Assembly (NCBI GenBank): GCA_035515795.1
Contig: DATJAY010000011.1
Coordinates: forward strand, 62,001-126,000
Direction: 5' to 3'
Source of the DNA: Candidatus Acidiferrales bacterium
GTDB lineage: Bacteria > Bacteroidota > Ignavibacteria > Kryptoniales > JAKASW01
DNA: 64,000 nucleotides
Below, piece after piece: positions 36,573 to 56,329 of this stretch (position 1 is its first letter; each line of letters starts with the position of its first letter). The translations under genes were made by a program, and so were the position numbers. The notes under the pieces were generated by a model, which worked only from the letters and a program-made list of their open reading frames with translations, had not been told where the DNA came from and ran no database searches.

Positions 36573-38204
36573 TCACATATTGAGACTAGAGGATTTTTCT
36601 TCTCGCATCTTATCCAAGAAAAAAGTTCGAACATCATTCACTAAGGCACCCCAGATGAAAAATTGAGGTTGTGGAGGGTTTAAGAACGTTGTAATGACGG
36701 GATTATTTTGAGGTTCGAGGCTTCTATTTTCTTCTTTAGGGCCATGATACATTTCCTGAATGATTTTGAACGGTTTTCCCACATCAATACTGAGTTTTTT
36801 ATCCCTCAAGAAAAAGTTCGAGCCGAGTTCTCTGATGACCGCTTTCTTCAATTCAAGTGGACTTTTCAAGAAGCGTTCCTTCGCCTCGTGAGCGAAAGTG
36901 AAGACTCGTGCAGCTGAAGCGATTGCGCCCTCAGTACCATTTCTTACCCCTTCTAGGCTCTTTTCCAAACGCGTCTTTTCATCGGTAAGTTTTCTTTTTC
37001 CTTTCAAGTATTCTTCGTCATCCAGCAGTTCTCGGAGCCTCATCTCATTAAGGTTTTCCAGCTTTCGTTCACAGTCATGCAAGGCCTTCTCAAGTGATTT
37101 TTGGGTTATCAATTCTTGCTCGCGATTCTCTACTTGTTCGTTTTCTAACTGGTCCAAAGCGAAATCAAGAAACTCTTTGGAGACTTGTATCCTATCAAGA
37201 TAATCCAGCATCTGGCGTTCCAGTTCCTGCGCTTGGATATACTCTTGCGAGCACTTCACATCAAGTTTCTTTTTTGTGCAATGGTAATAAATGTAATGAG
37301 AACCATAATAGTTCACCCGTTCTTCGGCTGTGATGCCACATCCACACTCGCCGCATTTCATCAGCCCTGTGAAGGCAAACTTGTGGTATTGGGGACGCGG
37401 TTTCCCTTTGCTGCCCAAAAGTTCTTGCGCCTTCCAGAACTCTTCCTCTGTGATCATCGGACGGTGTTTCCCTTGATGCAGACTTCCATTGTATTGAATT
37501 ACGCCGTAATAAAACGGATTGGTGAAAATCCTGTAGATCGAGCTTACGCTTAGCATCTTGCTTATACGCTCGCTGTGCGTTCTCCGCCTTAATCCTAGTT
37601 CGTTGGATGCGATATAGTGGATGCGTTTTGGGTTGTATCCTTCGAGCAGCATATCCCACATTTTGCGGACTGTAGAAAATCGATCTGGATCGGGGATAAT
37701 TGTGTGATCTCTCAATTCATTCAAGTAACCGATTGGAGCGAGGCCCGGCTTCCATCCCTTCTCAAGTTTCATTCTATTGCCTCGCTTCACATTGTCTGAA
37801 AGATCGTCAACATATTTTTTTGCCATTCCGAACTCAAGCTGCATGATAAATTTATCATTACTGTTATTATGAAGTTGGTTATAGGGGGTTATAATTTCTT
37901 CGATCTTTCCCTGATCGAGTGCCCATACGACCGCCGCTCCATCAAGCGGATTACGTGCTAAGCGATCCAACTTCCAGCAGATAATACCTTTGACATCACC
38001 GTGAGAGATTTGTTCCATGACACGACCGAAAACAGGACGACCGGGGTACTTAGCTGATCGAGATTCGGTAAGAACATCCGATGCCGAAATCTTAAGTCTT
38101 TCGGAAAGCTCCTTAAGTTCTTTAATCTGTGCTTCGATGGAGAGTACCTGCTTCTCTTCCGACTCAGTTGATTTTCTGCAATAAATGATGTATTTCTGTG
38201 CCAT
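36573..38204 (-). CDS. large serine recombinase 2
   Basis: The N-terminal catalytic domain is IIYCRKSTESEEKQVLS (S12 as nucleophile), with GIICWKLDRLARNPLDG. The recombinase domain reads GWKPGLAPIGYLNE and RIFTNPFYYGVIQYNGS, followed by the zinc ribbon CGECGCGITAEE ... YYHCTKK and a long coiled coil (about 360-430). It has 543 residues. It is only distantly related to recombinase 1 and has the look of recombinases on small elements in candidate-phylum genomes. A small gene just upstream accompanies it. Either a second element is nested here, or this is a second recombinase of the same element. Confidence 0.9.
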   Translation of the reverse strand: MAQKYIIYCRKSTESEEKQVLSIEAQIKELKELSERLKISASDVLTESRSAKYPGRPVFGRVMEQISHGDVKGIICWKLDRLARNPLDGAAVVWALDQGKIEEIITPYNQLHNNSNDKFIMQLEFGMAKKYVDDLSDNVKRGNRMKLEKGWKPGLAPIGYLNELRDHTIIPDPDRFSTVRKMWDMLLEGYNPKRIHYIASNELGLRRRTHSERISKMLSVSSIYRIFTNPFYYGVIQYNGSLHQGKHRPMITEEEFWKAQELLGSKGKPRPQYHKFAFTGLMKCGECGCGITAEERVNYYGSHYIYYHCTKKKLDVKCSQEYIQAQELERQMLDYLDRIQVSKEFLDFALDQLENEQVENREQELITQKSLEKALHDCERKLENLNEMRLRELLDDEEYLKGKRKLTDEKTRLEKSLEGVRNGTEGAIASAARVFTFAHEAKERFLKSPLELKKAVIRELGSNFFLRDKKLSIDVGKPFKIIQEMYHGPKEENRSLEPQNNPVITTFLNPPQPQFFIWGALVNDVRTFFLDKMREEKSSSLNM

Positions 38205-38674: not shown

Positions 38675-39865
38675 ATGGATGAACAAGAAGAAATGTTCAA
38701 CCGTGCCCATGATGCTTTAATGACGGAGTTCAATCGATTAATCCGTGAACGAGTAAATCAACAGGCGAAAGAGATGGTCGCGCTTGCCCGTAGTTCCCAA
38801 TTTCAGAAGTCGGCGACACCGTATGTAGGCAGAAATAAGATCTACGAGGAAACATTAGCGAACGTTGGAAATGATTATATCAATGCCCTGAGAAACATTT
38901 TGTTTCCCAATTGCGACCTCGTAACTGAAGTGCAGACCTCGATGTTGGTCAAGGAACTAACAAAGATAATTGAAACAATGATGGAAAATGCGAAAAGAGG
39001 AACTGCTCAGTTTGCTGCGAGCATCGGATTAACCAAAAATCTTGGATCGTTCAACGCGCCATTGGAAAATATGTATCGGTCCGCAGCCTCGAGATTTGGC
39101 GACCATATTGTATCGGAGGTCAAGCAATCAAATTTGGCAAAAGCTCATGGAAAGGTGACGCTTGCAAGTTCGATGGTCGCTCAATCTAACCACGAGAAAG
39201 TGCAAGTTTTCTTCAGCCATTCGACAAAGGACAAGAAGAGAGTGCAGGCGGTAGCCGACTTCTTTGATGATACTTGGTTTGAAGTTTTCGTGGCACATAG
39301 AGATATATCCGTATCCTCTTTGTGGCGCGGTGAGATACTAAAGCATCTGAAAGCTTGTGATGTTTTCGTCTCATTCTTAACGACTAATTTTCATAAGTCG
39401 GACTGGACAGATCAAGAAGCAGGCATTGCAATAGGTGAAAATAAGGCAGCAATCATAGGGCTCCAATTTAGCAAAAAGCCATATGGGTTCCTTGAGCAGT
39501 ACCAGTGTATCAACTGCCGAAATGTTAGCCCACGAGATATAGCAGAATCCATAATAGAAGCGGTACTCAAAAAATCTCCAGACGATCAGAAAACAAGGCG
39601 CGCGTTTATCGAAAGCCTAATCGAAACCAAATCTTTTGATCAATCAATTATGTTTTCAAATCTACTCTCTGAGATTAAGAATTTCTCCAATGAAGAATTT
39701 AAGAAAATTATTGTCGGAGCTTGTAAGAACGATCAAATCAGTAATTCTCCGAGGACGGTTAAAAATATCTCGACAATCCTTGAGCAACACAGAAAACAAA
39801 TACCCGAGCAATTGATAGCTGACTATGAAAACAAAGTTGCACTTCTCGATCTGCCTAAGGGGTGA
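38675..39865 (+). CDS. TIR-domain protein
   Basis: The helical N-terminal region (about 1-170) starts MDEQEEMFNRAHDALMTEF. The TIR domain (about 175-285) reads VQVFFSHSTKDKKRVQAVADFF, FVAHRDISVSSLWRGEIL, CDVFVSFLTTNFHKSDW and TDQEAGIAIGENKAAIIG, with E248 as the probable NADase glutamate. A C-terminal helical tail follows. TIR proteins of bacteria degrade NAD+ or make signal molecules during phage attack. No SIR2 (ThsA), CBASS cyclase or Argonaute partner is nearby, so it may act alone. The stretch 38403-38674 before it holds no other gene. Confidence 0.82.
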   Translation: MDEQEEMFNRAHDALMTEFNRLIRERVNQQAKEMVALARSSQFQKSATPYVGRNKIYEETLANVGNDYINALRNILFPNCDLVTEVQTSMLVKELTKIIETMMENAKRGTAQFAASIGLTKNLGSFNAPLENMYRSAASRFGDHIVSEVKQSNLAKAHGKVTLASSMVAQSNHEKVQVFFSHSTKDKKRVQAVADFFDDTWFEVFVAHRDISVSSLWRGEILKHLKACDVFVSFLTTNFHKSDWTDQEAGIAIGENKAAIIGLQFSKKPYGFLEQYQCINCRNVSPRDIAESIIEAVLKKSPDDQKTRRAFIESLIETKSFDQSIMFSNLLSEIKNFSNEEFKKIIVGACKNDQISNSPRTVKNISTILEQHRKQIPEQLIADYENKVALLDLPKG

Positions 39866-40368: not shown

Positions 40369-42693
40369 ATGCCTGAACTCTTTACCATCTTGACGGTCAC
40401 TTTCGTTGTTGTTGTTGTTGTCATTATCTCGATAGCTGTAGTAATCCACGTTAGAAAGCTTGGAACCGATACACAAGCTGGCACATCTAACGAGCACGCA
40501 GCCTCAACAAACCCCATAGACATCACAGAACCGGTGGATTCAGATCGTTTGCCACAACAAACAGTCGATGAGAAAGAACAAGAACCGCTTCGATCAACTA
40601 ATCCGACACCAAGTTCGTTAATCAACACAGAAGAAGAGGAAGGAACCAAGCAGGCAGCCATTGAAACAGAAATCAATTTTAGGAAAAGCGCTGACCCAAC
40701 GATCGCTGATTCGAATAAACCCAAAAGTGATGAACCTGCAAACGGTTTAAACGGAATAGGGTCATCAGAACCTTTGACGCAGCTCGAAGGTGGAGAAGCA
40801 GAATCTAAGAGCGATCACCAACCAAAACAGGTAAGAAACATTTCACCTGAAAATCGTGGTGGTGCACGTCGCGGGAAACGAACAAACGATGCAAAAGAAT
40901 CAGACTCAGGAAAGAAGCAACGCGTTAGAAGACCGGAAATAGTTTGTTGGCTACAGTCAAGAAAATGGTTTGTGGGCATTGAGATGCCAACCGATATCGG
41001 GGGGATATTTCAGGGTACAGCAACGTTGGGTGGTACTCCGCTAACAAAAGTATCAGATTCACACTGGACCGTTCCATGTTTGTTAGGGAATATAAGAATT
41101 TCTGGATTGCGGGGAGTTGATATTGTTGACCTCCCTTTAGGAACAGAGCAAGTGCCGTATCTTTTGTTCAAGCTTTCTGGCGAGACTCTGAATGTTGGAA
41201 GGCGCGTTCGTTATACAACATCAGGCATGTACCTCGTGGTGGCACCATTGGAGTGGTCGCGCGATGAAAAACAATCTGGCCTTCCGCGAGTGCCACCGTA
41301 TCCGTGCCATCTTAGCGGGTTTCAAGCACATTACTTCCATCTGGATTCTGAAAACGATGGACGTATCGCTTTTATCGCGTCAGACGGTGAGATAATCCAA
41401 ATTCCTAGCAGCAACTCTCACTTTGATTTTGAAGGTTGCAGAATAATAGATGATGCAAATGATGAAATGGGACCTTTATTTGGACAAAACCCACCTTTCT
41501 TAGTAGCCAGCGACAAATCGATTTGGAAAAACGTGGAGACCATCGTAATAGGTGAAGAAGGAAAAAGCTCAAGTGGATGGAGAACGGCATTTAAGCTAAA
41601 TGCTGAAGATGCACGAGTTGATCTTTGTTCGTCTTTGCAAGTCAAAGATGGTGGCTGGTTTTTTGTGAGAATTTATGATTCAAATGATGAGTTGATAGAT
41701 AGTCTTGATTTCCGTTTCATTAGAAACTTGCGCTCCATAAAAACTGACGAGCATAGTGTCCTTCCAATTGAAACAGGACATCAGCCCACAAAAATAACAC
41801 TTGAATGTGAAGAAACATCTTCGTTCAAAGTTGTTCCGTTTGCACATAACTTGAAGTCGGGAAGAAGTGATGAGACAAAAATTGAGATAGAAATTCCATC
41901 CCAGCCAGAATACGACCGGACAGAATGGACACTTGTGTCATCGACTAAATCGAGGGTGAATGTCTCTTTGCTTGTTGAAAGGGTATGGTGGGCTATTTGC
42001 GAGAAAGGTACTTCATTAAAACTATCACAATGGAAAGACAAATATTTGTCACTAACATCTGAGCACCTGAAGGCGTCATCAGATTTGGTTCTTCGCATTC
42101 GATTCCCTAAACCGAAATGGGCAAGACAAGTCCAAGTTGGTTTCCACAAAGGGCATGCACGGACATATCCTGTTGAGGTTACTAAGAATACAGTCGATAT
42201 TCCTCTAAATCATTTTGAAGGAGTGAGTCAGCTTGAGGATCCTTCAAAGGATCATCCCTTATTTCTATCATTAGAAGGTTTTTCGGAACAGGTCATGGCG
42301 CTTTTAACATGCAGACGAGAAAAAAAGAAAACGCATCAGCAAAAGAGAAAGACGAAAATTCGTCTGAATGTACCTCGGTTACTTAAATATTTGAATCGCC
42401 TTGGACGGTATACTAAAGATGACAAACTATCCTCATTGATAAATGAATGCAAACAGAAATGGTCGTCGCCAGAAGTGCGGGAACGGCGAGATGAATATTT
42501 GAGCGAGACAGCGTGCGTGATAGCTCTGTCATGGAAACTTTTGAAAGCGAAGGAATTAAAAGTAATTGGAAAAAGAAAAGGGTGGATCAGGAACTTGGTC
42601 AAACTCGCAGACGCCGAACCTTATTCGTTTTCATCGACCATGGAAAAATACAAAATGTTATCAGGCAACGATAAAGTTGCCTCATCAAATTAA
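40369..42693 (+). CDS. membrane-anchored defence-island protein of unknown function (774 aa)
   Basis: One N-terminal transmembrane helix (residues 3-28, very Val/Ile-rich) is followed by a disordered, acidic/Ser-rich linker (about 30-175) with QPKQ and basic RRGKR stretches. A folded part follows with beta-rich repeats (VCWLQSRKWFVGIEMP; WTVPCLLGNIRISGL; LNVGRRVRYTTSGMYLVVAPLEW; PPFLVASDKSIW). A lysine-rich helical C-terminus (KRKTKIRLNVP, WKLLKAKELKV) ends it. No family recognised. It ends 14 bp before the DUF1998 helicase, so they are co-expressed. A helicase partner tethered to the membrane, with a ligand-binding beta part, is an inference. Confidence 0.6.
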   Translation: MPELFTILTVTFVVVVVVIISIAVVIHVRKLGTDTQAGTSNEHAASTNPIDITEPVDSDRLPQQTVDEKEQEPLRSTNPTPSSLINTEEEEGTKQAAIETEINFRKSADPTIADSNKPKSDEPANGLNGIGSSEPLTQLEGGEAESKSDHQPKQVRNISPENRGGARRGKRTNDAKESDSGKKQRVRRPEIVCWLQSRKWFVGIEMPTDIGGIFQGTATLGGTPLTKVSDSHWTVPCLLGNIRISGLRGVDIVDLPLGTEQVPYLLFKLSGETLNVGRRVRYTTSGMYLVVAPLEWSRDEKQSGLPRVPPYPCHLSGFQAHYFHLDSENDGRIAFIASDGEIIQIPSSNSHFDFEGCRIIDDANDEMGPLFGQNPPFLVASDKSIWKNVETIVIGEEGKSSSGWRTAFKLNAEDARVDLCSSLQVKDGGWFFVRIYDSNDELIDSLDFRFIRNLRSIKTDEHSVLPIETGHQPTKITLECEETSSFKVVPFAHNLKSGRSDETKIEIEIPSQPEYDRTEWTLVSSTKSRVNVSLLVERVWWAICEKGTSLKLSQWKDKYLSLTSEHLKASSDLVLRIRFPKPKWARQVQVGFHKGHARTYPVEVTKNTVDIPLNHFEGVSQLEDPSKDHPLFLSLEGFSEQVMALLTCRREKKKTHQQKRKTKIRLNVPRLLKYLNRLGRYTKDDKLSSLINECKQKWSSPEVRERRDEYLSETACVIALSWKLLKAKELKVIGKRKGWIRNLVKLADAEPYSFSSTMEKYKMLSGNDKVASSN

Positions 42694-42707
42694 CGTATGG
42701 ATGAAAA

Positions 42708-45700
42708 ATGAATCCAGCCGAATTAGCTACCCTCATTGAAGATCGGTACCGACGATACCTTAAGACAACATTCTATTTCCGCGATCCGATTTTTAGGAAA
42801 TCATTTGAAGATGCGCTCAAAAACGAAGGAAGCCTGAGCAAGGGGCCTTACCTCGAAGCAACACCTATATTCAAGAAAGGCAAAAGTTCGCGAGATTTAT
42901 TCAAAGAACTACTTGGAACATTGCCCGATGAAGGATTTCTTAAGGCGACAGACAAGGAACTGTACACTCATCAAGAAGAAGCCATTCGCCGGGTTTTGCA
43001 GTGTCGCAACGTTGTCATTGCCACCGGCACCGGAAGCGGAAAAACGGAGGCGTTCCTATATCCGATTTTGCTTCACCTCTACAGACAGTTTAAGGAAGGT
43101 TCGCTCAATTCTAAAGTCGGGGTTCGCGCTTTGGTTTTGTATCCAATGAACGCGCTTGTAAACGATCAACGCGACCGGCTTGGTTCAAAAGATGATAAGG
43201 CGCGTGGCATATGCAACTTGATGGAACACCACCATTCCCCCTTTAGGTTCACTTATGGGCAGTACACAGGCGATACGCCTGAAGATGAGAATGACTCTTC
43301 TAGAGGCGCAAAAAATAAGATTGTCAACAGGTATGCTGGAGAACTCTTATTGAGAAAAGAAATGCGGCAAACGCCGCCCCATATTCTCTTGACAAATTAT
43401 TCAATGCTTGAATATTTGTTGCTCAGGCCTGACGACAGCGAGCTTTTCGATAACGGCAGAGGTGAGCAATGGACATATTTAGTCTTGGACGAAGCGCATC
43501 AGTACCGTGGTTCCAAAGGGATCGAAATGGCCATGCTGGTGCGGAGGCTTAAGCAAAGGTTAAGAGAAGGCGGAAAGGCAGGCGAATTTAGATGCATTGC
43601 TACGAGTGCGACAATTGCAGGTGGCGAGAAGGACCGTGGAAAAGTCGCTGAGTTTGCCTCCGATCTGTTCGGAGAGCCTTTTGAGGATGACGATGTGATC
43701 TTCGGGGAAACCGAACCATTGCCAGTTGAAGGTACGATAGACATACCGACAGATGCCTACGCCGTGTTGAAAGAATCTCTCCCTGGAACCAATTCGACCA
43801 ATCCAAGTCTTGCACATTTGGTAAATCAATTCGGAATCCCGACACAATCCAACGAACGTGTCGACAGTGTCATAGGAAAGCTATTGCAAAGAGACAAGCG
43901 TACACTGAACTTGAGAAATAGAATAACTGCTTCTCCTGTACCAGTAAGCGACTTATCACGTGAACTCTTTGATGAGTTACCGTTCGACAGACAAATAACA
44001 TCGCTTGTCGATTTAGTTGATCTGTGCTTAAACGGTGTAGACGAAAAGACGAATTCACCATTGATGTCAGCGCGATATCATCTTTTTCTTCGGTCCTTGG
44101 AGGGGGCAACGATAGCGTATCAGCCATCGAAAATGGTTTTGCTGAATCGGCAATCAGACTCGGGTGAATTTAAGTTGTTCGAAGTCGCACTTTGTCGGGA
44201 ATGTGGTCAACATTATTTTGTTGGTAAAAACATTGGAGGCAAACTGGTCGAAGCGGTAAGAGATCCAGGGCGCGATGATTTTGGCGCAGAATATTACCTT
44301 CCTATTGAAGGGGACACTTTCGAAATCGGAAATTCAGATGAGGAAGACAACGGCTCGAATTTTCTTCTCCTTGACCTTTGTTTAAGATGCTCTTCGATCT
44401 CGCCCGTGAATAATGGCACACCGAAACTCCAATGCGGACATTCGGAAACAATTCGAGTAGTCAAGGTGGAAACCCCTCCGGCGACAAAGGATGAAGATAA
44501 AGCGCCGAAGTGCATCGTTTGCGGGTACAGCGGGGCTGATCCTGTTAGGGAAGTCCTTTACGGAACCGATGGACCGCATGCAGTCATAGCTACGACCCTA
44601 CATCAGAACTTACCTCGTGATAGAAAGAAAGTCCTCGCCTTTGCAGACGGAAGGCAAGAGGCAGCTTTTTTCGCGTGGTATCTTGAACAATCGTATCTTG
44701 ACATAAGAAACAGGAACCTCATTTATAAAGCAGTCACGAAGGCAGCACCACATGATGGAGATGGGTTATCACTTCGTGATGTTGCCAAAGATCTGCGCGA
44801 TGTTTTTAAAGAATCAAAGGCTTTTGATGCATCCCGAAGTGAGCGGGACCTCCTAAGAGAATCTTGGATCGCACTCTATCGTGAATTCTTAACAGATGAA
44901 CCGAGAATATCTCTGGAAGGTGTGGGATTAGTCCGATGGATGATTGCATGGCCCAAAGATTTTGAAGTTCCCAAAATTCTCTTTCAACCACCTTGGTCAT
45001 TAACTCAAGAGAAAGCAATAAACCTTCTCACTTTGCTCTTCGGTTACATGCGTCGAGAGCGTTGCGTTGAAGTGCAAACAGACAACTCGGTTTCCATTTC
45101 TTGGCCCGACCTATCGTTGCAGGTACCTCAGAAATCAACACAGCTTGTCAAAGCTCGCAGTGCAAAGTATATCAATAGCTGGAAAGGCAAAACTACCGCA
45201 CGTGCTGGATTGTTGAAAAGGATACTCAACACTTCTGTTTCAAAAGAACAAATTGAGTCCCATGTAGATGACACACTAACACAAATCTGGGAATCTGTCA
45301 GAATCTGGAACGATGAACATTCTTCCAACGAACGCTTTTGGATTCGTGTTGGTGATGCAGAAAGGTTGAACCCCGACTGGTGGCGAGTTTCCCCGCTCAG
45401 AGATTCAGAATCTGTTTTTCAATGCGATACCTGTGGACGCATATCAACTATCTCTGTGCGGAGCGTTTGTCCTCGACATAAATGTCCTGGTACGCTTCAG
45501 GAAATAAGAATTGAAGAGACAGACTTACTAAGAAATCATTATCGAGTGCTATACCAAGAAGAATTACCCGCTAGACTAGTGGTAGAAGAACACACCGCAC
45601 AGATAGATAAAGAGAAAGCGCGCGAGTTCCAAAACGATTTCAAGAAAAACAAAATAGATGTTCTAAGTTGCTCCACGACCTTTGAAGTCGGTGTTGATTT

Positions 45701-47399
45701 GGGCGACCTCGATGTTATTTTCTTACGGAATGTTCCACCTGAGGCGTTCAACTATGCACAACGCGTTGGAAGAGCCGGTAGGAGGCAAGGTTATCCAGGA
45801 ATAGCCATAACATACTCGCGGAGGTCACCGCACGATCTCTATCACTTCAACGAACCACTGAAGATGATAAGAGGCATAACAAAAGCCCCTTCTCTCAGTT
45901 TGCGGAACGAGAAGATTATCCTTCGACACATCACGGCTATTGCACTTTCCAAGTACTTCCGGGCGAATCAAAGCAGATTTGACTCTGCGCAAACATTTGT
46001 TGGAGATTTTCAGTCGCCGACTGGAGTTTCCGACATCATAAAATTTTCTAAAGCCAACAGAGAAGAATTAGAAAAATCTATGTGGCCTATTGTACCAGAG
46101 GAATTGAAATCGGGAGTCGGATTAGATGATGGCTCATGGGTCGATAAAATTGCCGGAGAGAGATCTCGACTCTTCCTTGCGGAGGCAGAAGTTTGCAGCG
46201 ACTATTGCGAACTGAGAAAATTAAGGCAATCAGCGTTTGACTCAGGGAATGACGAAACGGTTAAATGGGCAGGTGCCCGCGCCAAGACCATCGCTGAGGA
46301 AGACATCATTTCCTTTCTGTCCCGCAAGACTATCATACCCAAATATGGTTTTCCAGTTGATGTCGTGGAACTTGAAACTCAGTCAATCAGAAACCAGAAC
46401 CAGAAATCAGCAGAAACATCACTGCAGCGAGACCTCTCGATTGCAATCGCAGAGTTTGCACCCACAAGTAAATTGATTGCAAACAAAAAAGAATGGACAT
46501 CGGCTGGACTAAAAAGAGTTGCAGGAAAAGAATGGGAGCGGCGGAAATATGTGCGATGCGCGGTTCATAATATTTATAAACAATGGGAAATAAATGAGAC
46601 GCCGCCGAGTATTCCCTTTTGCGGTTGCAACCAAATGATCCAGAGTGAATACATTGATCCGATGTTCGGTTTCGTCACAAGTAAAGGAGCGCCTGATGAA
46701 CCGAAAGGGCGACCACAGAAAAGCTTCACTACGCGACCATACTTCGTTGAATTCAATGCAGGCGAACCGGTTGTAACGAAATTCAATGGGATAGAAATAT
46801 CGAAAGCTGTTCCAGCAAAAATGGTAGTTTTGTGTGAGGGCCGACGGGGCCAAGGATTCTATATCTGTACAGCATGCGGTAAAGGAGAGAAACATCTGAC
46901 CAAAAAGTTGATAAAAGAACATTTATCGCCGCTCGGCTTGAAGTGTTCCGGTCAATGGACAGGACAGGTTTCGCTAGGTCACGAGTTTGAAACTGATGTC
47001 GTTCGAGTCAAGTTTTTGCTCCAGCCAGAGGAGACCGATTTAATTTGGTTTGGATATTCGCTGGCGTACGCTCTCGTTGAAGGGATCGCTGACATTTTAG
47101 AAGTTCCCTCATCCGACCTAAACGCGACTGTAGGACATGTTGACGATGTTGGAGCTATTCCTCCGATCATTCTATACGACAACGTTCCGGGAGGTGCTGG
47201 TCTTGTGGCTCGAATAGAAGATAAGACGATGCTAGGAGAAGCACTCAGGACTGCATATGAACGGGTCAGCCAATGTACCTGTGGTGAAAATGAAAGTTGC
47301 TATACCTGCCTGCGAAATTATCGAAATCAATTTGCACACGAACACCTGCGAAGGGGTCCGGTGGCAAAATATCTGGATCAATTGCTTAGCCAATGGTAA
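42708..47399 (+). CDS. DEAH-box helicase with C-terminal DUF1998 domain (1563 aa)
   Basis: Superfamily 2 helicase: Q-like KELYTHQEEAI; Walker A ATGTGSGKTEAF (about 106-117); LVLYPMNALVNDQRDRL; DEAH (about 261-264); SATIA (about 298). A second RecA domain has STTFEVGVDLGDLDVIFL and QRVGRAGRR (about 1018-1026). A zinc ribbon CDTCGR ... CPRHKCPG lies between, and the C-terminal DUF1998 (about 1480-1561) has CTCGENESCYTCLRNYRNQ. DUF1998 helicases occur in DISARM-, Druantia- and MrfA-type systems; this one is shorter than DruE (about 2000 aa). It probably unwinds or translocates on invading DNA. The protein paired with it at 40369 does not match the partners I know. Confidence 0.88.
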   Translation: MNPAELATLIEDRYRRYLKTTFYFRDPIFRKSFEDALKNEGSLSKGPYLEATPIFKKGKSSRDLFKELLGTLPDEGFLKATDKELYTHQEEAIRRVLQCRNVVIATGTGSGKTEAFLYPILLHLYRQFKEGSLNSKVGVRALVLYPMNALVNDQRDRLGSKDDKARGICNLMEHHHSPFRFTYGQYTGDTPEDENDSSRGAKNKIVNRYAGELLLRKEMRQTPPHILLTNYSMLEYLLLRPDDSELFDNGRGEQWTYLVLDEAHQYRGSKGIEMAMLVRRLKQRLREGGKAGEFRCIATSATIAGGEKDRGKVAEFASDLFGEPFEDDDVIFGETEPLPVEGTIDIPTDAYAVLKESLPGTNSTNPSLAHLVNQFGIPTQSNERVDSVIGKLLQRDKRTLNLRNRITASPVPVSDLSRELFDELPFDRQITSLVDLVDLCLNGVDEKTNSPLMSARYHLFLRSLEGATIAYQPSKMVLLNRQSDSGEFKLFEVALCRECGQHYFVGKNIGGKLVEAVRDPGRDDFGAEYYLPIEGDTFEIGNSDEEDNGSNFLLLDLCLRCSSISPVNNGTPKLQCGHSETIRVVKVETPPATKDEDKAPKCIVCGYSGADPVREVLYGTDGPHAVIATTLHQNLPRDRKKVLAFADGRQEAAFFAWYLEQSYLDIRNRNLIYKAVTKAAPHDGDGLSLRDVAKDLRDVFKESKAFDASRSERDLLRESWIALYREFLTDEPRISLEGVGLVRWMIAWPKDFEVPKILFQPPWSLTQEKAINLLTLLFGYMRRERCVEVQTDNSVSISWPDLSLQVPQKSTQLVKARSAKYINSWKGKTTARAGLLKRILNTSVSKEQIESHVDDTLTQIWESVRIWNDEHSSNERFWIRVGDAERLNPDWWRVSPLRDSESVFQCDTCGRISTISVRSVCPRHKCPGTLQEIRIEETDLLRNHYRVLYQEELPARLVVEEHTAQIDKEKAREFQNDFKKNKIDVLSCSTTFEVGVDLGDLDVIFLRNVPPEAFNYAQRVGRAGRRQGYPGIAITYSRRSPHDLYHFNEPLKMIRGITKAPSLSLRNEKIILRHITAIALSKYFRANQSRFDSAQTFVGDFQSPTGVSDIIKFSKANREELEKSMWPIVPEELKSGVGLDDGSWVDKIAGERSRLFLAEAEVCSDYCELRKLRQSAFDSGNDETVKWAGARAKTIAEEDIISFLSRKTIIPKYGFPVDVVELETQSIRNQNQKSAETSLQRDLSIAIAEFAPTSKLIANKKEWTSAGLKRVAGKEWERRKYVRCAVHNIYKQWEINETPPSIPFCGCNQMIQSEYIDPMFGFVTSKGAPDEPKGRPQKSFTTRPYFVEFNAGEPVVTKFNGIEISKAVPAKMVVLCEGRRGQGFYICTACGKGEKHLTKKLIKEHLSPLGLKCSGQWTGQVSLGHEFETDVVRVKFLLQPEETDLIWFGYSLAYALVEGIADILEVPSSDLNATVGHVDDVGAIPPIILYDNVPGGAGLVARIEDKTMLGEALRTAYERVSQCTCGENESCYTCLRNYRNQFAHEHLRRGPVAKYLDQLLSQW

Positions 47400-48044: not shown

Positions 48045-48764
48045 TTAAAGAATATCAGCGAAAATTTTTGAGATGTGAACGACGTTCGCCAACCGCATAT
48101 CATCCAGATAACCCAAATCTTTCAACCTATAGATGACGTTCGTTTTATTGACTTGGTATCTGTAAGCAAGATCCTTCACGATTCTTTTGAAGTCTCTACG
48201 GTTCCCTTGTTGCTCATCCAAATAAATATAACCTTTCCGAGTAATGCCCATCTCCTCTTGTATTTTCACAAGTTCGTTGCGGAATGTCGTCGAAGGCATA
48301 AGGAATGAGGATGCGAATCTATTTGCCTGCCATTCAGCCCAATCCTCATCGGTTTGCAATATCTTTTTACCTGTTATCACATCGAAAACCTCGTCGGTAT
48401 CTTCCCACCTGTCCTGTGTATTTTCAAATGCGCATTTTCGATGAAGAACCAAATGGCCGATCTCATGAGCTAATGCGAAATTCAATCTATCAGTACCCAC
48501 AAGCGATTTGTCAATGTAAATTGCAAATGACTTTGGAAGAAATTGTCCAAGAATCTTGCCGCCCAAAGTGGTACACCCGAGATCGCGATTAAAGTCAAAA
48601 GTGATTGGATGAGCCGGAGAAATTGCTTTGAGCCGTTCCACTATGGATATAACTGGCGTTGGCTGTTGTGTAAGCAACACGTTTTCGTCAAAAAGTTTTA
48701 TGAAACTCTGAGATTTTTCTTCTATGTCATCCGCTCTGAGTCGTCTTAGACCGGCAATATTCAT
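48045..48764 (-). CDS. ImmA/IrrE-family metalloprotease
   Basis: The zinc-protease motif HEIGH is at residues 100-104 (FALAHEIGHLVLHRK), followed by EWQANRFASSFLMP, where the Glu is the usual third ligand. ImmA/IrrE proteins cleave XRE-type repressors in response to DNA damage or phage. The ATG overlaps the previous stop (ATGA). No free XRE repressor is encoded in this operon. The only XRE domain nearby is fused to the HsdM methylase encoded divergently 650 bp away, which makes that fusion a possible target. Confidence 0.87.
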   Translation of the reverse strand: MNIAGLRRLRADDIEEKSQSFIKLFDENVLLTQQPTPVISIVERLKAISPAHPITFDFNRDLGCTTLGGKILGQFLPKSFAIYIDKSLVGTDRLNFALAHEIGHLVLHRKCAFENTQDRWEDTDEVFDVITGKKILQTDEDWAEWQANRFASSFLMPSTTFRNELVKIQEEMGITRKGYIYLDEQQGNRRDFKRIVKDLAYRYQVNKTNVIYRLKDLGYLDDMRLANVVHISKIFADIL

Positions 48765-49333
48765 TTCTCTCCGTTATCAGATTTATCCTGAATTACTTGA
48801 GGAAGGACAACATTCTGGTCGGGTTTCGTTTCAGAATCCACGGCTTGCATAATTTTGCCTGGTGTGCCTGCAATTTCTTCGTAGTGTTCTTGTATTTTGT
48901 CCTGCAAGTTCGGGCCGAGGTTGTGACTAGAGTTAAGATGATTGTAAGCGTCGAACGATTTGAATCCTGCGTTCAATGCGCTCCTGGCATCAGCACTCAG
49001 ATATAAGGCTCTTGTTCTGAATAGGTCCCAGTACGAGTCCTTTACTTTCTTAATTTCTTCTTGGTTGTCAGACCCAACCGAACGAATCATATCAAGGCTT
49101 ATCGCATAAGCTTCTTGGTGCGCTTTTAGTCTTTCATCAAGGCAAGCCAGCTTAAATTTATCCTCACGTTCTCTGCGAAATAGTTCCGCTTCAAACTTTT
49201 GTCTAAATTCTTGAAGCTTAGTGTCGAACTGATTGCCGATGCTTTTCTCCGTAAGTACTTTGTACCTTATCATCAAGAGAATCAGCAATAGTTGCAGAAC
49301 GGCGATTATCACCTGCCACCAAATCATGACCAT
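48761..49333 (-). CDS. membrane coiled-coil protein
   Basis: One transmembrane helix (IIAVLQLLLILLMIRY) is at the N-terminus. A coiled coil follows (FRQKFEAELFRREREDKFKLA...KVKDSYWDLFR), then a soluble, charged tail. An internal start two codons down (ATG at 49327) is possible. Not recognised as a family. It is the first gene of the trio with ImmA/IrrE and lies only 74 bp from the divergent hsdM gene, so they share a control region. Confidence 0.6.
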   Translation of the reverse strand: MVMIWWQVIIAVLQLLLILLMIRYKVLTEKSIGNQFDTKLQEFRQKFEAELFRREREDKFKLACLDERLKAHQEAYAISLDMIRSVGSDNQEEIKKVKDSYWDLFRTRALYLSADARSALNAGFKSFDAYNHLNSSHNLGPNLQDKIQEHYEEIAGTPGKIMQAVDSETKPDQNVVLPQVIQDKSDNGEK

Positions 49334-49362: not shown

Positions 49363-49410
49363 CATAACTTGACTTCCTATTTGTTATAGCATAACTTAAT
49401 AATTGTTATG
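49363..49410. promoter_or_regulatory. operator-like array between the divergent operons
   Basis: The 74-bp gap holds four half-sites of one sequence: CATAACTT at 49363 and 49390, GTTATA at 49383, and GTTATG at 49405 overlapping the hsdM start codon. They form a close pair GTTAT-agc-ATAAC (49383-49395). The array suits autoregulation by the XRE domain fused to HsdM, which is an inference. Confidence 0.45.
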
Positions 49411-51252
49411 ACAAAATCCAATCCTTTCAGCAAACAACTACACAAATTACGTGAAAAACTAAATCTGAGCCAAGAACAGCTTGCCTCGCGTCTGAATGTC
49501 TCATTCGCCACCGTAAATCGTTGGGAGACTGGTAAGTCCAAGCCGCAAAAGGCGCAGATGGAAGCCATTCAAAAGCTCTTTGAGGAAGCCGGAACCGGCC
49601 AGATTAGCGCAGAAAGCAACTCAGAAGAAGATACCGGAGCCATTCAAGGAAGGAGGCGGCGAGGTATTTCAAGAAGTGCCGTACTCTCAAATAGGAGTAT
49701 GGAACAAATGCTCTGGGATGCGGCGTGCTCCATCCGAGGAGAAAAGGACGCGCCGAAGTTCAAGGACTACATTATCCCTCTCCTTTTCATCAAGCGTCTT
49801 TCCGATGTCTTTGATGATGAAGTGCAGCGACTCACAGAACGCTTCGGGGAACAGAAAACTGCGCTCGACATTCTTGAACACGATCATTCACTAGTTCGTT
49901 TCTATATCCCACCTGAAGCACGATGGCTCGTTGTCAGCAATCGCGAGCCGTTCAAATGGGCAAAAGGAAAAGAGCCAAAATCCCTCGGTGAACAACTGAC
50001 CACGACCATCCGCGCCATCGTAAAGTACAATCCCTCGCTTGCCGGCGTGATTGATATTGTTGATTACAACGAGACGCGGAATGGCGAACGCGAAATCAGC
50101 GACGGGGCACTGCGAGGCGTTATCGAAACTTTTTCCGATCCACGATACAGACTTGGCTTACATGATGTTGAACCGGATTTTCTCGGGCGCTGCTACGAAT
50201 ATCTCTTGCGGAAATTCGCAGAAGGACAGGGACAAAGTGCTGGCGAGTTCTTCACTCCGACAGAAGTTGGTTTCTTGATTGCAGAGATCATGCGTCCGCG
50301 GCCTGGCGAAGAATGTTACGACTATGCCTGCGGCTCGTGCGGCTTGCTCATCAAACTTCAACTCGTTTGCCGCGAACTTGATCGACTTTCCAAAGTACCG
50401 CTAAAACTTTACGGTCAAGAACTCCAAGCAGATAACTATGCCATCGGCTGCATGAACCGTATTATCCATGACATGGATGCAGAGATACTTCGCGGAGACT
50501 CGATGCGTAATCCGAAGTTTAGAGACAGCGATACTCGGCTGAAAAAGTTTGACATCGTGGTCGCCAATCCAATGTGGAATCAAGGGTTCGATCCGGATGT
50601 TTATGAGAACGATCCATTTGAGCGTTTTGAGGAGCAAGGTGGTATCACGACCAGCAAAGGTGATTGGGCGTGGCTACAGCATACCATGGCATCGTTAAAA
50701 GACAGTGGCCGCGCGGCAGTAGTGCTCGACACGGGCGCAGTGACAAGAGGAAGTGGGAGTAAGAACGAGGACAAAGAACGCAATATTAGAAAATGGTTCG
50801 TAGAGCATGACTTTGTTGATGGTGTGATTCTTTTGCCTGATAACCTTTTCTACAACACAACCGCTGCCGGCATCATTATCGTTTTAAGAAAGAACAAGCC
50901 TAAAAACCGCAAAGGTAAAATTGGTTTGGTCAATGCGAGCCAACAATTTCTAAAAGGGACTCCGAAAAACTATTTGCCCGATGAAGCGATTAAGAAAATA
51001 GCCGATGCGTTCAAGGGAGGCGAGTTGCAGGACGGGTTCGTCAGCACGATCACAAATGAAGAGGCAGCGAAGAATGATTACAATCTTTCGCCGTCGAGGT
51101 ATCTCACGAGCAACGGATATTCCGAAGTCAAAGACTTGATTACTGCCATCGCTCACTATGAAGCCGCTTTGAAGGAGGAGGCAAAGATTGCGATGGACGT
51201 GAATAAGGTCATTGGTCAAATCAAAGCTCTTACAAACCACAACCAAAAATAA
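49408..51252 (+). CDS. hsdM: XRE-HTH/type I methylase fusion (HsdM)
   Basis: The N-terminal XRE helix-turn-helix (about 6-62: [22 protein letters not shown]) is fused to an HsdM body. The HsdM N-terminal helical domain starts near residue 95 ([17 protein letters not shown]); the methylase core has [16 protein letters not shown] and the binding motif [14 protein letters not shown] (about 290-317) and [10 protein letters not shown] (about 386-395) in place of NPPF. It methylates adenine in the sequence chosen by HsdS. The fused HTH is unusual and may let the methylase regulate the operon. It ends in TAATG with hsdS. Confidence 0.88.
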
Positions 51253-52493
51253 TGAAGCGCTTTCGTGAACTTTGCAGTTGCATAAATGACCAATGTGATC
51301 CGGCGACCAGCGGAGCGTCTGTTTATATCGGTTTGGAGCATATGGACAGCGGCGCGTTTTTCCTGTCTCGGCAGGGTAAGTCAACTGAAGTTAAGAGCGC
51401 CAAAAGTCGCTTCAAGAAAGGGGACATCCTTTACGGAAAGCTTCGTCCGTATCTCGACAAAGCGGTGATTGCTCCTACCGACGGCATTTGCTCAACTGAT
51501 ATCTTGGTTTTTCGTCCGGCGCAGGATATTTGCGTTGCATATCTGCTTGGTCTTATACATTCGCCGGAATTCTTGAACCATGCGATTCAGACGACGAACG
51601 GTGTCAATCATCCGCGAACATCATGGACAGGATTATCAACCTTTTCTTGGAATGTGCCGCGGGAAGTGGAACAGGAAAAAATCGCAGCGGTGCTTTGGAA
51701 GATTCAACGTGCAATTGATATAGAAGAAAAACTCATTGCCACAGCGCGTGAATTGAAGCATTCCACAATGCATCAGCTGTTCGGACGCGGACTTCACGGC
51801 GAGAAGCTGAAAGAAACGGAAATAGGAATGATTCCGGATAGTTGGGAGGTCGTGCCCTTGGGTAGGCATCTCCTTTTAGCTCAATACGGATTATCAATCC
51901 GTGGCCAACAAGTGGGACGTTATCCTATTCTTCGCATGAATTGCCAACTTGATGGCAAAACAATATTTCGTGATTTGCAATTTGTTGAACTTGATCAAAA
52001 GACGTTTGCCGCATTTCAAGTCAAAGACGGAGATCTGCTTTTCAATCGTACTAACAGCTTCGAGCTTGTCGGCAGGACCTCCATTTTCCGATCTAACCGT
52101 GAAGCCGTCTTTGCATCATATCTTATCCGCCTCACATTGGACCAGTCTGAGTACTATCCAGAATTTGTAAATTTCTATTTCAATCAGCCGTCAGTTCAGG
52201 CCGATCTGAAACGTCTCGCAAGTCGCGGTGTTAGCCAGTCGAACATTAGCGCGAGCAAGTTGAAAGAATATTATATCCCCAAGACATCTTTGGACGAACA
52301 GCGTGAGATTTCAGGAATCCTCCAATCTATTGACAGTAAAATAGAAATTCTCGAGCGCAAGCGTGCCACTTTGCAGGACTTATTCAAGACAATGCTCCAC
52401 AAGTTAATGACTGGAGAAATCCGAGTTGTTGACCTTGATATAGACGTAAGTGAAATCACTGATGGCGCAGACCATGAAACCATTAGAATTTGA
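51252..52493 (+). CDS. hsdS: type I specificity subunit HsdS
   Basis: Two target-recognition domains, each followed by a conserved helix: KGDILYGKLRPYL ... REVEQEKIAAVLWKIQRAI and DGDLLFNRTNSFELVG ... LDEQREISGILQSIDSKI. Each carries the usual 'xGDLL...R' pattern and a coiled-coil dimer arm. It has 413 residues, the normal size. The start codon overlaps the hsdM stop (TAATG). It determines which DNA sequence the complex recognises. The sequence cannot be predicted here. Confidence 0.9.
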   Translation: MKRFRELCSCINDQCDPATSGASVYIGLEHMDSGAFFLSRQGKSTEVKSAKSRFKKGDILYGKLRPYLDKAVIAPTDGICSTDILVFRPAQDICVAYLLGLIHSPEFLNHAIQTTNGVNHPRTSWTGLSTFSWNVPREVEQEKIAAVLWKIQRAIDIEEKLIATARELKHSTMHQLFGRGLHGEKLKETEIGMIPDSWEVVPLGRHLLLAQYGLSIRGQQVGRYPILRMNCQLDGKTIFRDLQFVELDQKTFAAFQVKDGDLLFNRTNSFELVGRTSIFRSNREAVFASYLIRLTLDQSEYYPEFVNFYFNQPSVQADLKRLASRGVSQSNISASKLKEYYIPKTSLDEQREISGILQSIDSKIEILERKRATLQDLFKTMLHKLMTGEIRVVDLDIDVSEITDGADHETIRI

Positions 52494-53382
52494 TATCCCG
52501 GCTACGAGAGAGTTTTTCTCTGGCTATTTGATTGACCATTTTCTGTATAAACAATATACGTTGTTCAATGCACTTGAGAAATTGCCAGAGCTGAAGTCCA
52601 AAATTCTAGATGGTCTGGTTGAAATCAATGAAGCCGAGTATGCGAAGACCCTTCGTCTCGAAATCAGAGCCACGTATTTCCAAGCAATTGAAACTCTTTT
52701 CGAGTTAATTTTCAGCCTTGAGCCAAGAAGCAATGTTATCGACAACAGACAGGTATGGTACTTTTTATCAACATCGCGATGGCGTGAAAACTACAAACGT
52801 ATTGAATCTATTGCGGCATCTGACACTGCATTCCTCGACCAGGAAATTAATGCAAACGAGAATCTGAAGGTTCCATTTATTCAATATCTTTTCTACTTTG
52901 GGGTAACTAATCCTTCAATGCAGGATGCGGTTCGTAGGAGCCTTAATCCTATCAAGAAGTTTTTGATTGAATTCGCGAAAGAATTTTCTGATCGGGATGA
53001 GTACAATGCGTTTAAACATTCACTTCGTATTCTTCCTACGTTACAAAAGGTAGAATTTGGCACTTCAGAGTCCGAAAAGCCTGTAATGGCTTTGGACATG
53101 AGCAACTCAATGACATATTTGGTCGAAGAGGGAGAATCGATATCCTTCAGAACCAAACCTTTAGATACGTTACGAGATATGCGAATGGGGCTAGTCTGTT
53201 CTTATTTGATTTCGAATATTGTTAGAAGCAGACGCGTACACTTTACGAAGAAACCTGAAGGCCATCTGCATACTTTCTCTGATGAAACATTTCCTTCCGC
53301 AAACGCACGAAATGTCAACTGGACAAATTTCAGGTTGACAATAAAACCGATATACGACACGCCAACAGACTCTTCAAAATGA
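52474..53382 (+). CDS. hypothetical protein inside the type I RM operon
   Basis: The start at 52474 is chosen as the natural N-terminus (MKPLEFDIPATREFF), but no ribosome site is strong. ATGs at 52450 and 52462 are alternatives. It overlaps hsdS by 20 nt. The product of about 302 residues is helical, with EIRATYFQAIETLFELIFSL, NPIKKFLIEFAKEF and RDEYNAFKHSLRILP. The YNAFKH part (177-182) resembles HEPN-like or Abi-type families seen in other RM operons. Not recognised more exactly. It may be an accessory toxin or regulator of the RM system. Confidence 0.6.
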   Translation: MKPLEFDIPATREFFSGYLIDHFLYKQYTLFNALEKLPELKSKILDGLVEINEAEYAKTLRLEIRATYFQAIETLFELIFSLEPRSNVIDNRQVWYFLSTSRWRENYKRIESIAASDTAFLDQEINANENLKVPFIQYLFYFGVTNPSMQDAVRRSLNPIKKFLIEFAKEFSDRDEYNAFKHSLRILPTLQKVEFGTSESEKPVMALDMSNSMTYLVEEGESISFRTKPLDTLRDMRMGLVCSYLISNIVRSRRVHFTKKPEGHLHTFSDETFPSANARNVNWTNFRLTIKPIYDTPTDSSK

Positions 53383-53404
53383 AACCTTTCGCTCAAAAGA
53401 GAAC

Positions 53405-56329
53405 ATGAGTAAAACACTTACTTCAGAAGCTGGTACGACCCAATTTCCGCTCATCAAATACGCCGAGGAAATCGGTTGGACTGTCGTTTCCAGTACAGAT
53501 GCTTTGACTAAACGTGGCGGCGAAGCAGGCCTGTTTTTCTACAAGGAGCTTGAGGATGCTCTTCTCCGCCTCAATCCAGGCGTCGTCACGGCGGATAACG
53601 TTCAGTCTATCATTCAGCGCATAGAGAGTGTGCCGAGTACCATTAACGGCAACCGTGAAATCCTTGAATGGCTGCGCGGCAACAGAACCGTATTTGTCGA
53701 AAGCGAAAAACGCCATCGCAATGTAACGCTCGTGGATTTTAGGAACCTTGATCGTAACGTTTATCAAGTAACTTATGAATGGACTTATCGGGCTTTAAGC
53801 AAGAAAGGCAATCGTGCAGATATAATGTTCCTTGTGAACGGCGTCCCAGTTGCAATCGTTGAAAATAAAAGTCCAAGACTGCCCGACGGCATGGAGCGTG
53901 CCATCATACAGATCAAACGCTATGAAAAGGAAACGCCGGAATTGCTGACGATGCCTCAGGTGTTCAACGTGACTCACCTAATCGAATATTTCTATGGCGT
54001 TACCTGGAATTATTCCCGCAAGAATATATTTGAGTGGAAGACACCGCGAGACGAAGCGTACAAAAACGCTGTTCAAAGCTTCTTTGAGTTTGAGCATTTT
54101 CTCAAGATGCTTGGGGAATGGATCATATTTTACCAGAAAGACGATGAATTACAGAAGACTGTTTTGCGGCAGCATCAGACGCGTGCCGTTGAAAAAGTAG
54201 TGCAGCGCTGCGCAGATCCAGAGAAGAAAACCGGACTTGTCTGGCACACGCAGGGTTCAGGAAAAACCTTCACGATCATCACAGCAGCGCGGCTGATTCT
54301 CGAGAATAAGGAACATTTTCCCGGTGCAACGGTAATGCTCGTCGTTGATCGGAACGAACTCGAAGGACAATTGTCGGGATGGGTTGAACGTCTCGTTGGC
54401 GAAATGCAAGGGCACGACATCAAAATCGCATACGCGGAAAGTCGAGCGAGGTTGCAGCAATTGTTGGATCAAGATTTTCGTGGACTCATCATATCGATGA
54501 TCCACAAATTCGATGACATAAGAAAAGATTCGTGCAAGCGATCTGACTTCTTTATCCTAATTGACGAAGCTCATCGTTCAACTGGAGGCGATCTTGGCAA
54601 TTATCTTATGGGCGCGTTGCCTAACGCGACACTCATAGGCTTTACCGGCACGCCGATAGACAAGACGGCCTATGGCAAAGGCACTTTCAAGATTTTCGGT
54701 AAGGAGGATGAGAAGGGGTATTTAGACAAATATTCAGTCAGAGAATCGATCAAAGATGGAACGACTGTAAAACTCCGCCACACTCTTGCCCGCAGCGAAT
54801 TACAGGTTCCTGAAGAACTGCTTAACAAGGAATTCTTAAGTATCGCCGAGGGGGAGGGTGTCAGCGATATAGATGATCTAAACCGCATTCTCGACCGTGC
54901 TGTGAACTTGAAAGCATTTCTCAAAGCGGGCGACCGTGTGGATAAAGTGGCACAGTTTATTGCTAAGCACTTCAAAGAAAATGTCGAGCCGCTCGGCTAC
55001 AAAGCGTTTCTCGTTGCGGTGGATCGCGAGGCGTGTGCGCTTTACAAGAATGCTCTCGATAAATATCTACCGCCGGAATACTCGACTCCGGTTTATACAA
55101 AAAATGTTGATGATTCAATTGAACGCCCGCTCGTCGCAAAGCTGCAATTGACCGAGACCGATGAGAAAAAAGTGCGGAAGGCATTTCCGAAGCCCGACCA
55201 ACTGCCGAAAATCTTCATTGTTACGGACAAGCTTCTCACAGGTTACGATGCGCCGATTCTCTACTGCATGTATCTCGACAAGCCCATGCGCGACCATGTC
55301 CTGCTGCAAGCCGTGGCGCGTGTGAATCGTCCTTATGAAGATGAGCAAGGCATCAAGAAAACTTGCGGTCTCATCGTGGACTTCATTGGAATCCTGAAGG
55401 AACTAAACAAGGCACTTGCTTTCGATTCCGATGAAGTGAGCGGAGTGATTGAAGACCTTGATTTACTCTTCGCGCATTTCAAAGCACTTATGGATGGGAA
55501 GGGAAAGAAATATTTGCAGGCCGCCGGCACGAACGGAAGCAGCAATGAGAAGTTAGAAAAGCTTCTTTATGAGACATTCCTCGACAAGAAGGAACGACAG
55601 GAATTCACAGACTTCTTCCAAGAGATTGAAGACCTTTATGAAATACTTTCACCTGATCCTCAATTGCGTGATTACATAGACGATTACTATTGTCTGAAGG
55701 AGATATACAAGGCTCTTCGTAACGCATACGGGAGGAAAACAACTTTCTTATCGGATGTAGCACATAAAACCGAAAAGTTAGTTCGCGAAAATGCCATGGT
55801 GTATGGGCTTGCTGAGATGACTAAGACGGTAGAGTTTGATGAAGCAGCATTGGAAGCACTAATGGCAAAGAAGGGATCTGAGAACGCGAAGGTGATCAAC
55901 CTGATCAATAGCCTTGTCAGAATCGCTGATGACCGTGGTACGACCGAGCCATATTTGCGATCCATTGCCGAACGTGCAGAAAAAGTAAAAGAGAATTTGG
56001 AAGATCGTCAGATGTCCACGACAGATGCGCTTACTCAAATAGAAGCCCTGATGAAGGAAAAGCATGAAGCCGATAAAGCTCGAAAAGAAAGTGGTCTCGA
56101 TCCAGCGACATTTGAGATATTTTGGTTCTTGCGGCAGGAACAATTGCCTGACGCCGTGGTGCTTGCAAAAGAAATCAGTGCAGCTTACCTGCGTTTTCCA
56201 AATTCCGCCGCCAACGCGGACGAGCAACGCCAATTGAAAGCAGAGATTTACAAATCATTGCTACGCGTCGTAAGCGGCAAACGAATGGTCGATCTTGCGG
56301 ATGAGATATTGAGACTTCGACAACAATGA
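53405..56329 (+). CDS. hsdR: type I restriction subunit HsdR
   Basis: The N-terminal nuclease domain has RNRADIMFLVN-like (GNRADIMFLVNGVPVAIVENK, about 134-156) with the D...ExK catalytic layout. The motor has Walker A WHTQGSGKTFT (about 278-288), LMLVVDRNELEGQL-type motif Ia, DEAHRS (about 387-392), GFTGTPI and QAVARVNRPY. The C-terminal region is helical with a coiled coil. At 974 aa it is the normal size. It forms the R2M2S complex that cuts unmodified DNA after translocation. The ATG at 53405 follows the unknown gene by 22 bp. The stop overlaps the next gene (ATGA). Confidence 0.94.
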   Translation: MSKTLTSEAGTTQFPLIKYAEEIGWTVVSSTDALTKRGGEAGLFFYKELEDALLRLNPGVVTADNVQSIIQRIESVPSTINGNREILEWLRGNRTVFVESEKRHRNVTLVDFRNLDRNVYQVTYEWTYRALSKKGNRADIMFLVNGVPVAIVENKSPRLPDGMERAIIQIKRYEKETPELLTMPQVFNVTHLIEYFYGVTWNYSRKNIFEWKTPRDEAYKNAVQSFFEFEHFLKMLGEWIIFYQKDDELQKTVLRQHQTRAVEKVVQRCADPEKKTGLVWHTQGSGKTFTIITAARLILENKEHFPGATVMLVVDRNELEGQLSGWVERLVGEMQGHDIKIAYAESRARLQQLLDQDFRGLIISMIHKFDDIRKDSCKRSDFFILIDEAHRSTGGDLGNYLMGALPNATLIGFTGTPIDKTAYGKGTFKIFGKEDEKGYLDKYSVRESIKDGTTVKLRHTLARSELQVPEELLNKEFLSIAEGEGVSDIDDLNRILDRAVNLKAFLKAGDRVDKVAQFIAKHFKENVEPLGYKAFLVAVDREACALYKNALDKYLPPEYSTPVYTKNVDDSIERPLVAKLQLTETDEKKVRKAFPKPDQLPKIFIVTDKLLTGYDAPILYCMYLDKPMRDHVLLQAVARVNRPYEDEQGIKKTCGLIVDFIGILKELNKALAFDSDEVSGVIEDLDLLFAHFKALMDGKGKKYLQAAGTNGSSNEKLEKLLYETFLDKKERQEFTDFFQEIEDLYEILSPDPQLRDYIDDYYCLKEIYKALRNAYGRKTTFLSDVAHKTEKLVRENAMVYGLAEMTKTVEFDEAALEALMAKKGSENAKVINLINSLVRIADDRGTTEPYLRSIAERAEKVKENLEDRQMSTTDALTQIEALMKEKHEADKARKESGLDPATFEIFWFLRQEQLPDAVVLAKEISAAYLRFPNSAANADEQRQLKAEIYKSLLRVVSGKRMVDLADEILRLRQQ

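Follow-up and report, generated by a model that had tools for sequence, protein, structure and literature searches.

Architecture and genomic setting of the locus

The window, i.e. the whole stretch of 64,000 nucleotides that was analysed, carries two adjacent genes on the forward strand. The first (40369..42693) encodes a protein of 774 aa, here termed the partner, which has eight homologues and for which a scan of PADLOC, Pfam and NCBIfam returned no family above noise; the second (42708..47399) encodes a DruE-like SF2 helicase of the DUF1998 (YprA) family with 1563 aa, assigned on the basis of PADLOC, Pfam and a phylogenetic tree. Both open reading frames had been described in an earlier, sequence-only reading, and both were recovered from the ORF list of the window on the same strand and 14 bp apart. 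The locus is a two-gene operon that, judged by kinship and context, probably serves as an anti-virus defence system.

A TIR-domain gene (38675-39865, forward strand; 396 aa) precedes the pair by about 500 bp, with a TIR_2 domain at residues 178-284 (Pfam, 3.2e-13) and a ThsB-like match in PADLOC (4.8e-10); no Thoeris partner was seen for it. As a candidate third component this gene was rejected, since no TIR gene occurs among the flanking genes scanned in four related loci (L013, L014, L027 and L002), and the system is therefore taken to consist of two genes. Just downstream, the opposite strand (48045-49333, reverse strand) encodes an M78 peptidase of the IrrE-like kind and a 190-aa protein whose N-terminus forms a hydrophobic helix. 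Beyond them lies a type I restriction-modification operon (49408-56329, forward strand), comprising HsdM with an N-terminal HTH, HsdS, an unassigned 310-aa protein and HsdR. Because the TIR, M78 peptidase and restriction-modification genes adjoin the pair, the region is a defence island. Two large serine recombinases, each with Resolvase and Recombinase domains, one at 36573-38204 (reverse strand; related to XisF and the Ccr recombinases) and one at 18566-20062 (reverse strand), may bound mobile elements carrying this island. Between 32603 and 36394 (reverse strand) three consecutive genes gave no significant Pfam or PADLOC match; two of them weakly resemble the model for the N-terminal domain of VPA1262 (6e-5 and 0.0025). 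It had been claimed that no other Druantia or DISARM genes are present; indeed, the neighbouring genes scanned yielded only chance-level or helicase-domain cross-matches, for Dpd as well, and none of the genes of Druantia I, II or IV (DruA-D, DruM/F/G, DruF/L) was found among them. The marks of DISARM and ARMADA, namely a separate DrmB, or a BrxHII-like helicase with a PglX-like methylase, are absent from the two-gene operon.

The helicase

The four DruE models of PADLOC are the top matches of the helicase by a wide margin (DruE1 5.7e-186, DruE3 5e-166, DruE2 1e-142, DruE4 3e-125), the best model outside DruE being DpdJ at 6.5e-25. The earlier description as a DISARM/Druantia-like helicase thus stands as to the Druantia kinship and was too generic, the protein being specifically DruE-like. 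Of the SF2 motifs and DUF1998 cysteines that had been ascribed to it, all those sought were found within this one protein, with Pfam matches to DEAD (9e-21), Helicase_C (2e-10) and MZB (1.6e-11). A motif check located the Walker A motif TGTGSGKT (43023..43046), the DEAH box (43488..43499), SAT and motif VI QRVGRAGRR (45759..45785), and the DUF1998/MZB zinc domain with its conserved cysteines (PF09369, residues 1452-1535) occupies 47061..47312, all on the forward strand; in an alignment, motifs and zinc-domain cysteines are kept, or nearly so, in six relatives. Pfam gave no match to a nuclease domain, the C-terminal PLD-like nuclease domains that mark Druantia type III-A are absent, and the protein stops 28 residues past the MZB domain.

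In a tree of 26 helicases, in which the labels Druantia III and ARMADA I were taken from neighbouring genes and III-B is without a reference sequence, the window helicase groups with its closest relatives at a support of 100/100. This clade lies inside the ARMADA/Druantia set, apart from the Druantia III DruE of E. coli and Marinobacter and from two presumed ARMADA I helicases. Going by its sequence, the helicase is a member of the ARMADA/Druantia lineage, a defence branch.

Homologues, pairing and distribution

The eight relatives of the partner all come from genomes of the same phylum, so that nine copies are available with that of the window. A Bacteroidota MAG encodes a helicase 66% identical to that of the window, together with an 802-aa partner homologue whose gene overlaps the helicase gene by 4 bp, and whole-genome searches brought up seven further homologues (L027, L013, L014, L055, L053, L056 and the distant L028); L026 and L002 denote the same locus. 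L028 is linked to the family via its C-terminal 300 residues, which match L014 at E = 6e-20. The helicase had been named as the sole operon mate of the partner and a survey of their adjacency proposed: each of the nine partners (691-831 aa) immediately precedes a related helicase, at distances of -32 to +14 bp, the contig of L053 stopping within the helicase gene. Of 395 genomes drawn evenly from the phylum, seven carry this kind of helicase at a match of 1e-60 or better and four carry the partner, all of them among the seven (hypergeometric, about 3.5e-8), and the partner was never encountered without the helicase. The twelve other genomes of the genus all have neither gene. From the adjacency in nine out of nine cases, the nested occurrence and the absence elsewhere in the genus it follows that the two genes are inherited and gained together, with a patchy distribution. 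In the closest pair, helicases are 66% and partner cores 45% identical, i.e. the partner diverges faster.

It is against this background that a function outside defence has to be considered, with the pair acting as a DNA-repair or replication accessory of the MrfAB kind. MrfA, a member of the same helicase family, works in excision repair (PMC12458937), and the copies in L002, L013 and L014 are located amid ordinary chromosomal genes. Against this speak the placement of the helicase in the defence branch by PADLOC and the tree, a patchy presence, the defence-island setting at the window and a fast-evolving, modular partner; we hold this explanation to be very improbable. A defence function of the pair, resting on kinship and context, is likely.

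Searches of plasmids and viral contigs revealed no partner. In Ruminococcus phage NatCom_28274 (L034:3245-10668) a DruE-like helicase, 30% identical to that of the window over its full length, follows directly on a gene for a 916-aa partner that resembles the partner of L029 (E 1e-8) and has no PADLOC match. On two cyanobacterial plasmids (L032:2364-12240 and L035:2122-12318) a DruE-like helicase is preceded by two conserved unannotated genes of about 900-970 and 310 aa, and the 898-aa gene of these loci has no PADLOC match. At L018:6190-10504 a gene in the partner position contains Ns, and further along a frame fuses a repeated partner fragment and a repeated helicase C-terminus; this layout looks like a duplication or an assembly artefact.

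Architecture of the partner

As had been noted from the sequence, the partner begins with an N-terminal transmembrane helix, its one strong hydrophobic segment (residues 5-27, 40381..40449, forward strand; Kyte-Doolittle 3.26 over 19 residues), followed by the basic residues VRK in a layout shared with L026, L027 and L013. According to the positive-inside rule, basic residues beside a membrane helix mark the cytoplasmic side, and the bulk of the partner is therefore predicted to be cytoplasmic. The transmembrane N-terminus is confined to these four of the nine partners; the other five (L028, L053, L056, L014 and L055) have an amphipathic N-terminal helix with moments of 0.45-0.77, succeeded in L014 and L055 by a coiled-coil-like stretch. 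Such N-termini would also suit a membrane effector, in that the helicase would sense phage DNA and the partner would then cluster via its core and disrupt the membrane, leading to abortive infection. A precedent of a kind exists in Druantia III, where DruH by itself is toxic to M. smegmatis and DruE neutralises it (PMC13316683). However, a single short helix, weakly hydrophobic in some partners, a long linker and C-termini resembling nucleic-acid-binding domains suit a tether rather than a pore, and the effector explanation appears quite improbable.

The linker (residues 30-185, 40456..40923, forward strand) is of low complexity and poorly conserved, in agreement with its earlier description as disordered, with 9-27% identity to the relatives as against 16-45% in the core. 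Alignment and motif scan revealed AT-hook-like sequences, RGGRPR or RVGRPR, in the linkers of five relatives, and in the window copy the basic patch RGGARRGKR (40855..40881, forward strand) as a degenerate version. Low complexity and AT-hook-like motif together suggest a linker that is DNA-binding-like.

The conserved core (residues 186-640, 40924..42288, forward strand) is defined by invariant columns and by strands that AlphaFold (AF2) predicts at low confidence. The model of the whole partner, built from two sequences, has a mean pLDDT of 49, with the first beta domain mostly at about 55-78, and as a query for fold searches it led to no usable result. The phrase "unrecognised beta-rich domains", used in the sequence-only reading, accordingly stands in so far as no domain is recognised; the beta character derives from this low-confidence model, and the last ~100 residues are in fact helical (pLDDT 85.8). 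PADLOC contains no Druantia, DISARM or Dpd component matching the 774-aa protein.

At this point one has to ask whether the partner might be a highly diverged DruH of the YjiT family, which would make the locus an ordinary Druantia III. Both share the order of partner followed by DruE, with genes that overlap or nearly do so, and the beta-rich core would be compatible with DruH, which contains Ig-like domains and diverges faster than DruE (PMC13192584); a helicase without nuclease would, moreover, fit the "Druantia Type III-like" branch (PMC12458937). On the other hand, none of the partners scanned matches the DruH models of PADLOC, which recognise two real DruH controls at E=0, and the profile-profile probability in hhalign stayed under 1%, with profiles so shallow (9 sequences) that a remote homology to the Ig-like domains of DruH may escape. 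The partners, at 691-831 aa, have a membrane helix and a linker where DruH has its N-terminal domain, and in the tree the window helicase falls outside the branch of the E. coli Druantia III enzymes. With PADLOC and hhalign both negative, the identification as DruH was rejected on the level of sequence, and we consider it unlikely; given the poor core model, a modest chance remains to it. By its sequence, the partner is best described as a member of a new, modular and often membrane-anchored protein family.

Exchange of C-terminal modules

In the window copy the C-terminal module is a basic helical bundle (residues 668-766, 42370..42666, forward strand; pI about 10; AF2 pLDDT 85.8), shared with L026. 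A fold search with this bundle returned only matches of the kind that any helical bundle would give (best VIA, Z 6.1, 6.8 Å rmsd over 111 residues; Foldseek E about 1), and no particular fold is assigned to it. Designed repeat proteins, the only matches of a PDB sequence search, were dismissed as chance (E 0.0085 or worse, 24 residues). In L013 the C-terminus is a uS9-like ribosomal domain (Pfam 2.7e-14; PDB S9 chains 3e-12), and the regular S9 gene sits at another place in that genome, which is a single contig. In L027 it is an eL13-like ribosomal domain (Pfam 2e-7; PDB eL13 chains 2e-9); a similar stretch at the end of L053 and L056 stays below the Pfam cut-off, with genome-search values of 4.6e-4 and 2.5e-4, and in L056 it comes after a domain matched by the profile of a phage virion protein (2e-8). 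L13e matches in the seven genomes searched fall exclusively in partner genes, and 14 control genomes gave none; bacterial ribosomes are not known to carry eL13. The C-termini of L014, L055 and L028 contain three C2H2-type finger motifs each.

L013 and L027 have helicases 65% and cores 40% identical, yet uS9- and eL13-like modules, respectively, whereas the C-termini are more alike than the cores in L027/L056 (30% vs 27% identity) and in L014/L028 (26% vs 18%). These relationships point to an exchange of the C-terminal module between close relatives. This modularity of the partner, with a C-terminus seemingly swapped from genome to genome, is what the present comparison adds to the earlier reading.

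The modules may be pictured as interchangeable infection readers, the uS9- and eL13-like ones being captured ribosomal domains that would bait or probe those phage factors or RNAs that act on translation, coupled to a membrane-tethered helicase. The literature searched offered no paper on defence proteins with L13e or ribosomal domains. We regard this idea as speculative and distinctly unlikely; if true, it would represent a new trigger route for DNA-targeting defence.

Proposed mode of action

The explanation we prefer, and consider rather likely, is a compact anti-phage system of a Druantia III-like kind, in which DruH has been replaced by an unrelated-looking, modular partner. In such a system the N-terminus of the partner, transmembrane or amphipathic, would hold the complex on the cytoplasmic side of the membrane and off the chromosome, the C-terminal module would read the trigger by recognising a phage-specific nucleic acid or protein, and the core would load the helicase onto invading or replicating DNA. 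ATP-driven 3'-5' translocation would then disrupt the DNA, aided by a nuclease encoded elsewhere, or replication might simply be blocked. Self-protection by membrane tethering would have a precedent in SNIPE, where it spares the host DNA (PMC13190303). That the pair acts where the DNA enters, as had been suggested for a helicase with a membrane-tethered partner, is possible. It is not favoured by analogy with Druantia III, because electroporated phage DNA is still stopped there (PMC13316683), and a transmembrane helix is present in only four of the nine partners.

As to the wider meaning, the role of the partner in Druantia III is still being worked out in the field. A second, unrelated-looking partner of DruE would identify the helicase as the fixed part and the sensor or tether as the exchangeable part, and the swapped modules, among them a bacterial eL13-like domain, constitute a natural experiment on the triggers of such systems.

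Comparison with known systems

The locus had been put forward as a possible new two-gene defence system. An inherited pair, a partner outside PADLOC and a defence island support this view; the type of system is not entirely new, because the helicase belongs to the ARMADA/Druantia lineage and pairs of a partner with DruE are known from Druantia III. It is a real unit and represents a Druantia III-like variant so far undescribed in the literature searched. In Druantia type IV, which consists of DruE, DruF and DruL (PMC8565338), DruE is likewise paired with an unannotated protein, whereas the present system is without a third gene and its partner matches no Dru model of PADLOC. SNIPE (PMC13190303) resembles it by functional analogy, in its mode of working, with varied membrane-anchoring N-termini, a DNA-binding part and self-protection by location; unlike the pair described here, it is a single protein with its own nuclease.

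Two-gene systems of a partner and DruE are assigned to Druantia type III (PMC13316683, PMC13192584 and PMC12458937). The E. coli system was called late-acting; DruH is the likely sensor and DruE engages intermediates containing ssDNA (PMC13192584). DruH was pulled down with a DruE homologue, and circularisation was blocked (PMC13316683). The window system shares with type III the two genes, with a large, faster-diverging partner immediately ahead of the DruE-family helicase. It differs in that its partner is without detectable similarity to DruH and combines a membrane helix with a linker and a C-terminus that can be exchanged, and in that its helicase of 1563 aa is without the C-terminal nuclease region of the E. 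coli-type enzyme (2104 aa in L031). Also close is the "Druantia Type III-like" or III-B branch of YprA helicases, DruE-like and mostly without nuclease; the passages of PMC12458937 consulted mention no membrane-anchored or ribosomal-domain partner. The window helicase is also DruE-like, with no nuclease domain found, and its clade may belong there.
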